DNA of 64,000 nt, taken from Salisaeta longa DSM 21114. Its GTDB lineage: Bacteria; Bacteroidota; Rhodothermia; Rhodothermales; Salinibacteraceae. The notes beneath the pieces are model-generated. The model did no database searches. It worked only from the letters and a program-made list of their open reading frames with translations, and was not told the DNA's origin. Shown here in pieces: positions 32,452-38,012 of this stretch. The DNA is taken from NCBI RefSeq assembly GCF_000419585.1, contig NZ_ATTH01000001.1, positions 1,386,005 to 1,450,004 on the forward strand, in the 5' to 3' direction. Position numbers and translations under genes: made by a program. Each line of letters opens with the position of its first letter. The first letter of the stretch is position 1.

Positions 32452-33258
32452 TTATCCCATTACAATCAGAGCCAAGACGATAGTTGTGACTCCAACAATC
32501 AGAATCAGAAGCGTCCGGTGCTGTTTTTCTATCTGCTCTGACAATTCTCTCACTTGTTCTTCGTGCTTATTGAGGCTTTCTTGAAGAGCGTCGGTCCGCT
32601 GTCGGTTGTCGCGAAGCCCTTGTTGTGCTTCGTCTCGAAGCGTTGACACTTTCTTAATGAGGGTCTCGTTCTCCTTCTCCAACTGATCTGCGCGCCTGCT
32701 GGTCGTCTTTTGGCCATCATGTAACCCTTGTCGGGTTTCGCTTCTCAGCGCTGACACCTCTTGACCCAGTGCCTCTTTGAGCTTCTGAAGCTGTTCTGCC
32801 TGCTCGTTTGCATGTTCCCGGTTGTCCTTCGTTACACGGCGCATCTTTGCGTCGAGGCTCTTTTCGACTTCACCGATGAGCCCTCGAACTGTCTTGAACA
32901 GATCGTCCAGATGCTGCTCATTCGACGCTCCTGTCCTTTCCAGTGCCGCATCAATCGCCGCCTCCAGGTCGTCAAGTTGGGTCTCGTGTCGCGACTGAAT
33001 CGTTTCCTGAAACCCACGAAGTGATTCGGCAGCCTCCTGAAGCGCTTTCGACCGCTGCTCCAGCTTCTTGATGCTTTTGTCGGTGGCAGCTTGCAATCGA
33101 GGCACGAACGCTTCCAGCGCCTCCGCAATGTCCGAAACGCGCTCCGCCAATTCCTCGGTTGCCGAGGCGTTCTGGTCGATCTTATCAGTGGCAGACTTCA
33201 GCCGCTGGAGTTCGTCAACCAGGTCTTCGAAATGACGTTGTGTTTGGGTGATTTCCAT
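32452..33258 (-). CDS. Coiled-coil protein with C-terminal membrane anchor, partner of RecQ-like helicase
   Basis: 268 residues, almost entirely charged heptad-type helix (e.g. FEDLVDELQRLKSATDKIDQ, VSTLRDEAQQGLRDNRQRTD), then one hydrophobic segment at the C-terminus (TLLILIVGVTTIVLALIVMG, ~248-267). This is a tail-anchored or type II-like topology with the coiled coil in the cytoplasm. No enzymatic motif. Its ATG is only 5 bases after the stop of the helicase gene, so it is almost certainly co-translated. It could tether the helicase to the membrane, act as a sensor, or be an effector. Base composition is lower in GC than the flanking genome. Confidence 0.75.
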   Translation of the reverse strand: MEITQTQRHFEDLVDELQRLKSATDKIDQNASATEELAERVSDIAEALEAFVPRLQAATDKSIKKLEQRSKALQEAAESLRGFQETIQSRHETQLDDLEAAIDAALERTGASNEQHLDDLFKTVRGLIGEVEKSLDAKMRRVTKDNREHANEQAEQLQKLKEALGQEVSALRSETRQGLHDGQKTTSRRADQLEKENETLIKKVSTLRDEAQQGLRDNRQRTDALQESLNKHEEQVRELSEQIEKQHRTLLILIVGVTTIVLALIVMG

Positions 33259-33263
33259 TGGGA

Positions 33264-36200
33264 TTACAGAATGTCAAGGGTTTCATTGAGCGTGGCGAGA
33301 CGTTTGGCCGTTCGTTCGACCAGAAGCGCATTCCGTTTGGGACGGAGGGAACGCTCGATGTCTGGGCTTATCTTGCGAAGGTGCTCATGGAAGTGCTGAA
33401 TTGTGTCGAGAACATCGGTCCAAGCGACGGACGGCTTTCGCGCGAAGGAACGAAAGCCCTGCTGGTAGGCGTCGAGTGCCTCCTCGGAGGGCTTGACCGC
33501 CTTGCTGTCGTTGTTTGTGGAGTTGTCGTCGTATTGAACCGAGTTAAGGACAAGAATGCTGAAGGCATTCAAGACGTCAAGGACGGCGTTCTGTCCTCTT
33601 AGGCTCGTCTGCAACCGGGCACAGGCGCCTCGAAGATGCTTGGCATTGTCAATCTGTCCACCCATCTCATCGGGCGGGTTGAAGACATAGTTGATGTAGG
33701 TGCGGGCAATTTCGGGAGATTCGATTTTCCCCATATCAAGCGCTGCGGGCAAGTACTTATCCCGAGCGTACTTCGAGGTGAAGTAGTACACGATGCTGTC
33801 GCGAAAGTGCTGCTCGCCCTGCTCGATGGCCTCACGACAAAGGGTATCCATATACTTGATCGACTGCTCCCGCTTTTGTTTAATCTCATCATACACAAAC
33901 TCCGTTTGCGCCCAAAGACAGCGCCGGATCATCGAATCCGTGATGGGCGAATCCGTATCAGGCGGCTCTATTTCCGAGGCTTCCATCTGGCGCAGCCGTT
34001 CGTTGGTGCTTTCCTCTCCCAGGTAGCGTCGGAAATACGTTTCAAGGGACCTACGGTATTCCGAGTCCGGCTTTCCCTGAAACCGTACGTTGTAGACTGA
34101 CGCTGCGTAGTCAATGTCGTAATCGTCGATGATCCCGAGAATAGAAAGCCGGTAGAGCGCGCGCTCCGTGTCGTTTGGGTTGCGGATCTTTAGGTAGTTG
34201 GCACGGAGAAACGCCGCCGTCTCTTCATCTAAGGAAAGAGATCGTTCCAGGTCGCGTACGTCGAAGTACCTCTCGTACTGAAAGTGAAGGCGTCCAGTAA
34301 ACTCATCTTCGCTGTGGCTGAAGTTGTAGGCGGCTCGGACGACTTCATCTTTGATTTCGTACGATTTGCCTCCCTTGAGCGCTCCGATTTCCTCCAGACG
34401 CTTTGTCATCTCCTGAACGGTATTGCTGGTGAAGCCCACCCTGAGTTCGTGCGTCTGCCTGTTTTCTTGCTCTCGCAGGACGCGAAGGATGCCAGGGGCC
34501 TGCACGCGGGTCAGAAAGTCGACGTAGGTGTCGGTGTCGGATTCTTCCTGGATGACCGTTCGGACACATTCAAGGATGTTCTGCGCCGTTTGAGGATCGG
34601 CGTTCTGCGGATACCTTCTCGGTTTAAACTGGGAAAGGTCCCGAAGATGAAGGCAACCGTAACAGACACGGTCGGCTTTTGTATCGCGCCACTTGCCGTT
34701 GACGTACAACAAGAACGGATCGGTGCCGCCCTCGGTGGGAAAGAGATTGAGGCGAACGTACGTATCGGATTGATCTCGGACTTTCTGCTCAACCAACCGG
34801 AGAAAGAACCGGTCTTCGTATCGAACCTCTTCCAGCAGTTCGGTGAGAATTTCTTTCTCGCGGGCAATGCCCTTAAACGAGTTTCGGTGGAAGTCCCGAT
34901 TCATCTCAATGTCCCGCGGATGGTACAGGATGCCGCAGAGAGCCGGTTGCCCATCGCGCCCGGCGCGTCCGGCCTCTTGGTAGAAGTTCTCCACGGAGCC
35001 GGGCGTGCTGTAGTGCAGCGTAAACCGCAGGTTGGGTTTATCAATACCCATCCCAAAGGCCTTCGTGGCGATCATCAGGTTTGCGCGATCCTGGAGGAAG
35101 AGGCGTTGGTTATCCTGCGATTCTTTTGCCGTCTTCTGCACAACCGGTTGTTTGACCGTGTCGTCGTCTTGCCTCCCAAAGAATGTCACAATCTCAAGGC
35201 TGTCGATCCGGTCCACCAGACCTCTCCTTCCTTTTTTTCCATTGCGCAGAGCCAACACGCCATTTGCGAGGGTGGGTGACTTCGTTGGACAGAAAACGAT
35301 CCCAGCGTTCGGATACGTTCCGGCACCATCCGTCCCGAAAAACGTGTCGACATCCGGCGGCAGGTGATCCTCCGAGTCTGGATTGAGCTTATGCAGTTCG
35401 GCCGGCACCGAGCGGATGAACTTCTCCGCTGCCTCGTACTTTGGCCCGCCCAACCTGCGTTCTCGCCTGTAGAACGGAAGACCTTCTCCAACGTCCGCGT
35501 CAATCGGAAGAATACGGAAGTGAAGTTCTTCGCGGTCAATCGCTTCGGCGGGAAGTGTGATGATGGCATCTTCCCCCACGCGAAGCTCCCGCTGCACGTC
35601 GGCCAGCACGTCGAACGACGCTGTTGCCGTTAGCCCGAAAAGAGGCAAACAGGCAGTGCTTTCATCTCCTTCGTCGCCTGTGGCAGAACCGGATGCTGAG
35701 CCTGAGCAGTACCGCTGTAGATTGCTTGCCAGATGCAGGTACACGTGGCGGAAGTCGTGGCCCCACTCCGAGACACAGTGTGCTTCATCTACAACGCCGC
35801 AGGAAAATCGGACGCCATTGCGCTGGCTGTTCTCAAACATCGCTCGGTAGCGAGGCATCTGCAGACGCTCAGGAGCAATGAACAGAAAGCCGAGGCGGCC
35901 CGCTACTACGTCCTCGCGAACGCGCGTCTTTTCGTCTGTGGAGTAAAACGAGTTGATGAAGTCACTCGCGCTTAAACCTTCTTCACAGAGGGCATCGTAC
36001 TGGTCTTTCATGAGCGAATTGAGGGGGTCCACGATGACCGTGGTGCCAGGCTGCAACAGGCCACAGAGCTGAAATGTGAGCGACTTTCCTCCTCCTGTAG
36101 GAAGCAGTCCGATGACGTCTTTGCCCTGCAACGCACGATTGATGATGGGCAACTGACCTGGGTAAAAGTCCCGCTTTCGGAGTGCGTTTTGCAAGAAGTA

Positions 36201-38012
36201 GGTCAAAGCCTCTACGCGAGCCTCATCGGTTCGCACAAACTTCTGGAATACGCTATCTTTTTCTTGCCTCCGTTCAACATGCCCAATGGATGGGTATTCA
36301 ATGCGACGTGCGAACACGCGCCGCTTGGGCCACTGCGGCGCATCGCTCGCTTCTATGTCGTCGGGGTAGGTGAGTGTCAGGCGTAGGGGAGACGATGTAG
36401 AGGAGGCATAGGCTTCAGGAGAGGCGCAGGCTTCAGTGCCGGATGCCGTTTTGCATTCCGGTTCGCCTGCCATCTCAGACGCATTCGACGCAGGAAGCGC
36501 CCAAGGGCCGCGAATGTCAATATCGGCTTCTCCGGGATCTGAAACAGCGCAGATTTGAATCGTGGAGACGTTTTCGCCATCGCGAAGGGTGGCCAACTGG
36601 TGTAGCAGCGTCGTGAGATCGTCGCAGATAAGCCGGGCGATCTCGTCTGCCAATCCTTCGAGATGCACACGCACCTGCTGGCTTCCGTCGCACTCCGTCA
36701 TGGAGGCTTCCTGCTGGAGCAGCCACCAGACCAGGACAATCTGAATGTGCGCGGCGTGGATGAGGCTTCGATTCAGGCGTAGAAGTTGAAGCGGGCGTTG
36801 ACCGATGTTTCCCGCTACTTTTGCTAAATCGGCGGATAGGGGAGTGCTTAACGCATCACGGAGCGCCTCAGCATCCACGTCTTCCCAAGGAACCGCATCG
36901 ATCATGATGCGAATCGTTGGTCCGTCTTCTGAGGACGTAGCACCGGCTTCCGGGATGTAATGATCGAGCATTCCTTCGCTGAGTTGCAGCGACGCCCGAG
37001 TAGGGTACCCACGGCAAAGATAGTTGTAGGCAACCGCAAGAGAAGAATCGACCGGATCCGGTGGCGGAGTCCTCCGCAGTTCCGGCACGTAGAACTGTCC
37101 GACCCGCTGGTAGAACGCATCCAGAGGATGCGAGTCCACTTCTGAATCGCTTTTGACGTCGCCAAGGTCCTCGGTCTGGCCGATGCGCCCAGCGTCCTCA
37201 TCATGCTCGTCCTCCGCATCGCCCATCGGGGCATCCGCTTCGTCGTCATCAAGGGTACGGAGGATCGACCGGATCGTATCATCCACCTCATCGATGATGA
37301 ATGCTTCCTGTGAGGGCAGTCTTTCTTTGACGTCTCTGGAAGAATCGACGTCTGGACCGGCCTCTTTCTCATTGGTTGAGGTCTGATCTATGGCTCCGAC
37401 CGACGCACCTGCTTTCTCCCATGAGGGACCCGGCTGCTCCGGAGTGAGAACATCTCGCGCTACGAGTTTCCAAAAGCACGAAACGAGTCTCTGAACTGCA
37501 GTGCGTGTTCGATGCGTGCTTGACGCGGGCCGGCCTGTGAGTTGTGCATAAAGAGCGATCACGTCGGACGCGCTGTCCTCGTTAGCAGAGAGGAGACCAG
37601 CCCCAATGGACGCATGCTTTGTGCACAGCACGGGAACCTGTGCTAAAGGGGTATCCAGGCCAGCGCGGTGAAACTCCGCGAGCAAAATCCCGAGTTGTGC
37701 GGGAGCATCGTGGACAACAAGAAGGTCAACATCGCGCAGCCGGTCGTTCAGGCGGGTAAGGATGTCTTTTGGCTTTCTTCCGGCCGATACCGCTTGCTCC
37801 ATCGTCATTCCGTGAGCCTTTAGGGTGCATTCTGGAAACTCAAATTCATTGGGCGTTACCAGAAAGGCTTTGCCGTCGAGAGACTTCCGGTCGTCTGAGT
37901 ACGGTTGCCACGCAACTTCCACCAAGTGCGGCCCGTCTTGTAGGTCCTGCCCAAGCGGCACTCCGAACCGGGGGACGCGCGCGGTCGCTTCCGTGGCGAG
38001 GAAAAGAATCAT
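33264..38012 (-). CDS. RecQ-family helicase fused to degenerate DEDDh exonuclease-like domain
   Basis: About 1,582 residues. Residues ~1-190 align with DnaQ-like exonucleases: FLATEATARVP in place of FLDTET, LKAHGMT, LLVVHDAPAQLGIL in place of the HNxxFD motif, VLCTKHAS, and HRTRTAV in place of HxALxD. All three catalytic Asp positions are changed. Residues ~190-600 contain an acidic linker and unknown helical regions. RecQ helicase core ~610-1050: LLPTGGGKSLTFQL, VVDEAHCVSEWGHDFR, GLTATAS, ATKAFGMGIDKPNLRF, QEAGRAGRDG. The ~530-residue C-terminus has CYGC but no recognised RQC or HRDC domain. Start ATG 38012 (a TTG at 38027 is possible). Operon with the coiled-coil gene. Confidence 0.88.
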   Translation of the reverse strand: MILFLATEATARVPRFGVPLGQDLQDGPHLVEVAWQPYSDDRKSLDGKAFLVTPNEFEFPECTLKAHGMTMEQAVSAGRKPKDILTRLNDRLRDVDLLVVHDAPAQLGILLAEFHRAGLDTPLAQVPVLCTKHASIGAGLLSANEDSASDVIALYAQLTGRPASSTHRTRTAVQRLVSCFWKLVARDVLTPEQPGPSWEKAGASVGAIDQTSTNEKEAGPDVDSSRDVKERLPSQEAFIIDEVDDTIRSILRTLDDDEADAPMGDAEDEHDEDAGRIGQTEDLGDVKSDSEVDSHPLDAFYQRVGQFYVPELRRTPPPDPVDSSLAVAYNYLCRGYPTRASLQLSEGMLDHYIPEAGATSSEDGPTIRIMIDAVPWEDVDAEALRDALSTPLSADLAKVAGNIGQRPLQLLRLNRSLIHAAHIQIVLVWWLLQQEASMTECDGSQQVRVHLEGLADEIARLICDDLTTLLHQLATLRDGENVSTIQICAVSDPGEADIDIRGPWALPASNASEMAGEPECKTASGTEACASPEAYASSTSSPLRLTLTYPDDIEASDAPQWPKRRVFARRIEYPSIGHVERRQEKDSVFQKFVRTDEARVEALTYFLQNALRKRDFYPGQLPIINRALQGKDVIGLLPTGGGKSLTFQLCGLLQPGTTVIVDPLNSLMKDQYDALCEEGLSASDFINSFYSTDEKTRVREDVVAGRLGFLFIAPERLQMPRYRAMFENSQRNGVRFSCGVVDEAHCVSEWGHDFRHVYLHLASNLQRYCSGSASGSATGDEGDESTACLPLFGLTATASFDVLADVQRELRVGEDAIITLPAEAIDREELHFRILPIDADVGEGLPFYRRERRLGGPKYEAAEKFIRSVPAELHKLNPDSEDHLPPDVDTFFGTDGAGTYPNAGIVFCPTKSPTLANGVLALRNGKKGRRGLVDRIDSLEIVTFFGRQDDDTVKQPVVQKTAKESQDNQRLFLQDRANLMIATKAFGMGIDKPNLRFTLHYSTPGSVENFYQEAGRAGRDGQPALCGILYHPRDIEMNRDFHRNSFKGIAREKEILTELLEEVRYEDRFFLRLVEQKVRDQSDTYVRLNLFPTEGGTDPFLLYVNGKWRDTKADRVCYGCLHLRDLSQFKPRRYPQNADPQTAQNILECVRTVIQEESDTDTYVDFLTRVQAPGILRVLREQENRQTHELRVGFTSNTVQEMTKRLEEIGALKGGKSYEIKDEVVRAAYNFSHSEDEFTGRLHFQYERYFDVRDLERSLSLDEETAAFLRANYLKIRNPNDTERALYRLSILGIIDDYDIDYAASVYNVRFQGKPDSEYRRSLETYFRRYLGEESTNERLRQMEASEIEPPDTDSPITDSMIRRCLWAQTEFVYDEIKQKREQSIKYMDTLCREAIEQGEQHFRDSIVYYFTSKYARDKYLPAALDMGKIESPEIARTYINYVFNPPDEMGGQIDNAKHLRGACARLQTSLRGQNAVLDVLNAFSILVLNSVQYDDNSTNNDSKAVKPSEEALDAYQQGFRSFARKPSVAWTDVLDTIQHFHEHLRKISPDIERSLRPKRNALLVERTAKRLATLNETLDIL

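Follow-up and report, generated by a model that had tools for sequence, protein, structure and literature searches.

Among the described systems closest to the locus studied here, PsyrTA/ShosTA (RqlH/RqlI) combines a RecQ-like helicase or a PRTase with a DprA-like partner, and RqlH/RqlI is reported to be a RecQ-like helicase that is held in check by its partner (PMC4670107). In Hachiman (HamAB), a sensor helicase is coupled to an effector (PMC12278908). A RecQ-like motor is also present in DpdF, and in WRN an exonuclease fold precedes the RecQ motor and the RQC and HRDC domains. The window, i.e., the whole 64,000-nucleotide stretch of Salisaeta longa DSM 21114 that was analysed, holds two adjacent genes on the minus strand: a giant RecQ-family helicase gene (33264..38012) and, 5 bp past the helicase stop, a gene for a 268-residue coiled-coil protein with a C-terminal transmembrane (TM) helix (32452..33258). 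The open-access literature searched contains no description of this gene pair. That helicase and partner form a pair, and that the helicase carries a dead exonuclease-like domain, are jointly held with high confidence.

With the RecQ family (TIGR00614; Escherichia coli RecQ, PDB code 1oyw), the helicase shares the motor core and its motifs, and among solved structures the family profile matches 1oyw best. Compared with canonical RecQ, the window family features an N-region of ~350 residues, a C-region of ~540 residues, the signatures SEWGHDFR and TKAFGMG, and an operon with a TM coiled coil, whereas RQC and HRDC are undetected. Membership in Dpd was rejected, as NF041063 scored 140.4 bits against a cut-off of 550, and the neighbours are GH113 and aldo/keto reductase genes, with no dpd genes present. 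The PADLOC model PDLC02868 spans residues 469–1471 of an enterobacterial relative; this model and phrog_33220, with labels of DpdF or unknown function, appear to be built on family members and may misname them. PsyrTA/ShosTA was rejected as well, since the window lacks both the PRTase and the DprA-like partner, which were found only in the enterobacterial relative; the window partner is instead a predicted tail-anchored coiled coil. The concept of Hachiman is the same, but the window has a helicase of another family, a membrane partner, and no HamA-type nuclease.

The helicase family and its membrane partner

The helicase is encoded by a single, unbroken ORF that can be read from TTG 38027 (1587 codons) or from ATG 38012 (1582 residues, the extent assigned from the ORF, Pfam, and family alignment A2); residue numbers refer to the 1587-codon version. 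The product from ATG 38012 begins with MILFLATE, which aligns with MYLIFDTE at the start of homologous exonucleases, and this ATG, also the start assumed in the original prediction, is therefore the better choice. The RecQ motor (RecA1/RecA2; residues 601–1050, 34878..36227, minus strand) was delimited with Pfam, TIGR00614, and the family profile. Its motifs are all intact, as had been claimed earlier: GLLPTGGGKS at residue 640, DEAH at 747, SEWGHDFR at 753, ATKAFGMGIDK at 987, and QEAGRAGRDG at 1017, with Pfam matches to DEAD (residues 623–783) and Helicase_C. A TIGR00614 score of 226.9 bits, above the cut-off of 219.8, identifies a RecQ helicase, but one that departs from the canonical RecQ domain set, as neither RQC nor HRDC was matched by Pfam at E 0.05.

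The segments on either side of the motor had been described as a linker and a C-terminus matching nothing recognisable. This view does not hold, since both can be aligned with relatives and belong to the conserved portion of a distinct family, whose members are giant RecQ-like proteins ~1200–1560 residues long. The N-region (residues 236–600, 36228..37322, minus strand) was defined by this alignment and contains RGxPT at residues 339–343; the C-terminal region (residues 1051–1587, 33267..34877, minus strand), in which RQC and HRDC are not detectable, was defined with Pfam and a C-terminal profile. For the 307-residue profile of the C-terminal region (A1), with Pfam and NCBIfam also searched, no solved relative was found in the PDB. 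RGxPT in the N-region and SEWGHDFR and TKAFGMG in the motor are invariant in the family. The related loci were gathered with the C-terminal family alignment, a whole-protein query having yielded none.

Most relatives contain an internal nuclease motif of the DUF559/Vsr type (QRVDF...EIDGxxH), recognised as DUF559 by Pfam in several of them, that is absent from the window protein. A maximum-likelihood tree places the window protein within a 17-member clade (support 100), all members of which lack the motif; a few rows of the tree, Rmar and G385 among them, were wrongly labelled nuclease-less by the motif regular expression, which leaves the 17-row clade unaffected.

The partner directly follows the helicase here as in the rest of the family, which we define by the conserved N- and C-regions together with an adjacent downstream coiled-coil TM gene, and to which the window pair belongs on both counts. 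Of 66 family helicases whose loci extend far enough downstream, 61 are followed by such a gene, compared with 4 of 318 control genes of the same loci; the set includes a few duplicate loci, from genomes that were reached in two ways. As for the loci without a recognised partner, the downstream ORF in L018 does have a C-terminal hydrophobic helix and was rejected by the composition filter alone, reading frames or contigs look broken in L124, L125, and L126, and L058 lies at a contig end. In L126 (G516 C85), the family helicase is divided over two ORFs and apparently disrupted. The TM helix of the window partner (32455..32514, minus strand) was predicted from hydropathy, and in 57 non-redundant partners the helix ends 0–12 residues (median 2) before the C-terminus. 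An N-terminal head, FExLIxELERLKSINEIT, is conserved in partners of the window's clade. Partner and helicase distances are correlated (Mantel r 0.76, reached in 0 of 2000 permutations; only r 0.27 among distant pairs). Both proteins of the window pair thus share ancestry with their counterparts in relatives.

An exonuclease-like domain without its catalytic aspartates

The N-terminal domain of the helicase (residues 6–198, 37434..38012, minus strand) is a catalytically degenerate DEDDh (DnaQ-type) exonuclease-like domain, assigned with phmmer, alignment A3, AlphaFold2, and Foldseek. Residues 1–200 match DEDDh domains in a phmmer search of 394 Bacteroidota-type genomes with E values down to 4.7e-22, and the resemblance is thus not due to chance. 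The best matches are 28–30% identical over ~195 residues and reside either in stand-alone ORFs of ~200 residues or in ORFs of 1400–1550 residues; judged from their length and the position of the domain, the latter are probably DnaE with a fused exonuclease. An AlphaFold2 model guided by homologues (A3) has a mean pLDDT of 77.7 and a pTM of 0.76, and shows the DnaQ topology with strands and helices in the expected order, whereas a single-sequence prediction was unusable (pLDDT 36). Foldseek matched the model to TREX2/TREX1, RNase T, DnaQ (PDB code 8h18, TMt 0.85), and epsilon (PDB code 2gui, TMt 0.82), with E values of ~1e-7 to 5e-9. A phmmer search of the PDB with the same domain gave a monobody as its sole match (E 1.1). 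The DEDDh/DnaQ-like fold that had been proposed for this region, and for which a structure prediction had been suggested, is thereby borne out.

The aspartates that define an active DEDDh enzyme are lost. In alignment A3, which comprises the window domain and 20 homologues, D11, D111, and D177 are kept in all 20 homologues, and the window protein, with A, Q, and A in these positions, is the sole exception; Glu13 and His172 are invariant, the window included. Where the related Bacteroidota proofreading-type exonucleases have D, E, D, H, and D, the window domain thus has A, E, Q, H, and A. Motif I reads ATE (Ala11, Thr12, Glu13; 37989..37997, minus strand) in place of DTE, and in motif II, FD is replaced by AQ, with Gln111 (37695..37697, minus strand) in the position of the catalytic Asp, both as the original prediction had it. 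In motif III (37497..37514, minus strand), the prediction was right about the aspartate, which is replaced by Ala177, but His172 is retained (HRTRTAV compared with HNATADV). Because all 20 homologues retain the three aspartates, the losses are private to the window protein and not shared; intact residues in homologues had been regarded beforehand as a sign of misalignment, but the alignment was right nonetheless.

The domain is followed by a low-confidence linker (residues 199–235, 37323..37433, minus strand) that joins it to the ancestral family N-terminus. The pLDDT is below 50 over residues 204–234, and residue 236 is the first that aligns with relatives. Proteins of the 17-member clade begin at window residue ~236–245, and all relatives found lack a DEDDh domain. 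The most simple explanation is therefore that the DEDDh domain and linker were added to the ancestral N-terminus after loss of the internal nuclease. The possibility of a stand-alone DEDDh gene beside nuclease-less relatives was considered and rejected, since only locus L059 has such a gene, and L059 has a nuclease motif of its own. This gene (L059:9310-9876), located ~1.4 kb 3′ of the helicase and shortly past the partner, encodes an RNase_T-type exonuclease homologous to the window domain. An RNase H-like gene located 5′ of the family helicase in Rhodothermus gave no match to the window DEDDh domain.

The original prediction described the architecture as WRN-like with an inactivated exonuclease. 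A DEDDh-type fold with lost aspartates is indeed fused ahead of an intact RecQ motor, in the same order as in WRN, but kinship with WRN does not follow from this. By profile, the nearest relatives of the DEDDh domain are Pol III epsilon, PolC, and TREX, WRN exonuclease is absent from the 50 best PDB matches of Foldseek, RQC and HRDC were not detected, and an exonuclease domain is missing from the proteins most closely related to the helicase, so that a bacterial WRN homologue acting as an exonuclease-helicase repair enzyme is highly improbable and was rejected as a class assignment. Since the domain was gained within a clade that lacks it, the resemblance to WRN is convergent. A more serious alternative, still an unlikely one in our estimation, is that a captured exonuclease is decaying without function on an otherwise functional helicase. 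The fusion is a singleton across everything searched (~60 family members), and degeneration has affected the catalytic residues as well as the greater part of motif III, as such decay would predict. It would be at odds with the intact frame of ~235 extra codons and the retention of Glu13, His172, and the HG motif, as well as with the domain profile score of 98.8 bits, compared with 34.4 ± 11.5 bits under simulated neutral decay to equal identity (maximum 60.5 of 200). This score points to conservative substitutions, those made before inactivation included. The wide margin over neutral decay supports retention of the fold, although much of the divergence, and with it most of the constraint, may predate inactivation. 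The sensor or DNA-end-binding role proposed earlier for the DEDDh domain is plausible; binding specifically to 3′ ends is a tentative suggestion.

Exchangeable modules and a possible role in defence

In relatives, other domains occupy the N-terminal position. The enterobacterial version (L020:4690-10777), found on plasmids and chromosomes and in 7 of 5426 E. coli genomes, consists, in this order, of a ShosA-like DprA, a protein with HAD, ShosT-like PRTase, DUF559, and RecQ parts, and the coiled coil. A methyltransferase-like N-terminal domain, with a weak Pfam match, is seen in G076 (L029:4147-9888) and in a viral contig (L098:2660-7873); the two domains are 33% identical to each other, and the gene immediately upstream of the G076 helicase encodes an AlkB-like 2OG-Fe(II) oxygenase. 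In G215 (L124:773-4969), the RecQ motor is preceded within the same protein by a Ser/Thr kinase domain together with an ExoX-like C-terminal motif; the nuclease motif there looks degenerate, and the C-terminus is seemingly frameshifted. The dead DEDDh domain of the window, as read from its sequence, fits a pattern of exchangeable N-terminal modules.

Members of the family occur in 10 of the 394 genomes searched in the phylum and in 10 of 245 in the class, and two peptide patterns from the C-terminal region retrieved 53 loci from ~85,000 species genomes. The family is patchily distributed over Bacteroidota, Rhodothermota, Ignavibacteriota, Bacillota, and Pseudomonadota, and several copies are plasmid-borne. 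The genes around relatives include type I RM, McrBC, IetA, SoFic, DISARM-like DrmE, and PLD proteins. The window copy is flanked by the GH113 and aldo/keto reductase genes and not by defence genes; for GH113 homologues in the family, the aldo/keto reductase was absent from the flanks covered. The GC content is 0.55–0.58 over 32–38 kb, compared with ~0.60–0.67 nearby. In phage records, matches were restricted to the helicase-motor region. Patchiness, plasmid carriage, defence neighbours, and the GC dip together argue for an anti-phage or anti-plasmid role of the pair, which we consider quite probable from context and distribution.

Our preferred reading, with a probability of about 0.6, is that the helicase works with its membrane partner and engages invading DNA, while the dead DEDDh domain serves as an end-binding or docking module. 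The genes at 32452–38012 would constitute a horizontally spread two-component system, probably directed against phages. The coiled coil is predicted to hold the helicase at the inner membrane or to signal through the membrane, serving either as a tether of the complex where DNA enters or as an effector. The helicase would engage free ends or replication intermediates of the invading DNA, and the non-cutting DEDDh domain may bind 3′ ends or single strands, or dock to a partner, thereby adding specificity or regulation in a slot used for other domains by relatives. The broader view of a widespread, undescribed modular defence, in which a giant RecQ helicase acts together with a tail-anchored coiled coil and has an N-terminal slot for interchangeable modules, here filled by an exonuclease turned pure DNA-end sensor, rates slightly below even odds.

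A housekeeping helicase that acts at the membrane in DNA repair or chromosome segregation, with no part in defence, would agree with the classical role of RecQ motors as repair enzymes and with the metabolic genes immediately flanking the window pair. Such a role is improbable given the very patchy occurrence across the phyla named above, the carriage on plasmids, the defence genes near relatives, and the enterobacterial version, in which a ShosT-like PRTase is fused to the helicase and a ShosA-like DprA lies next to it; moreover, the host already carries other RecQ-like genes. Somewhat better placed, if still rather unlikely, is a toxin-antitoxin or abortive-infection pair, in which the helicase or its N-terminal domain would act as sensor or toxin, and membrane damage would be the work of the coiled-coil TM protein as effector. 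The nearly constant presence of a small TM partner and its combination with ShosA/ShosT-like parts in enterobacterial relatives would suit this arrangement, and RqlH/RqlI (PMC4670107) offers a reported precedent for a RecQ-like helicase restrained by its partner. Against it stands G042 C2 (L123:5137-8939), where the motor is destroyed (Walker A, DEAH, and RecA2 are gone; 997 residues), while the adjacent partner is retained and normal. The single tail-anchor helix also fits tethering better than pore formation, tethering being the more typical function of such a helix.

If the pair of the preferred reading, a helicase tied to the membrane, is indeed defensive, the known defence systems would be joined by one with a membrane-linked helicase, which has a constant motor-membrane core and exchangeable N-terminal modules. 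Because the pair can be recognised by sequence, its spread and role are testable. With a dead proofreading domain in the N-terminal slot, recognition of DNA ends would have been uncoupled from cleavage in nature.
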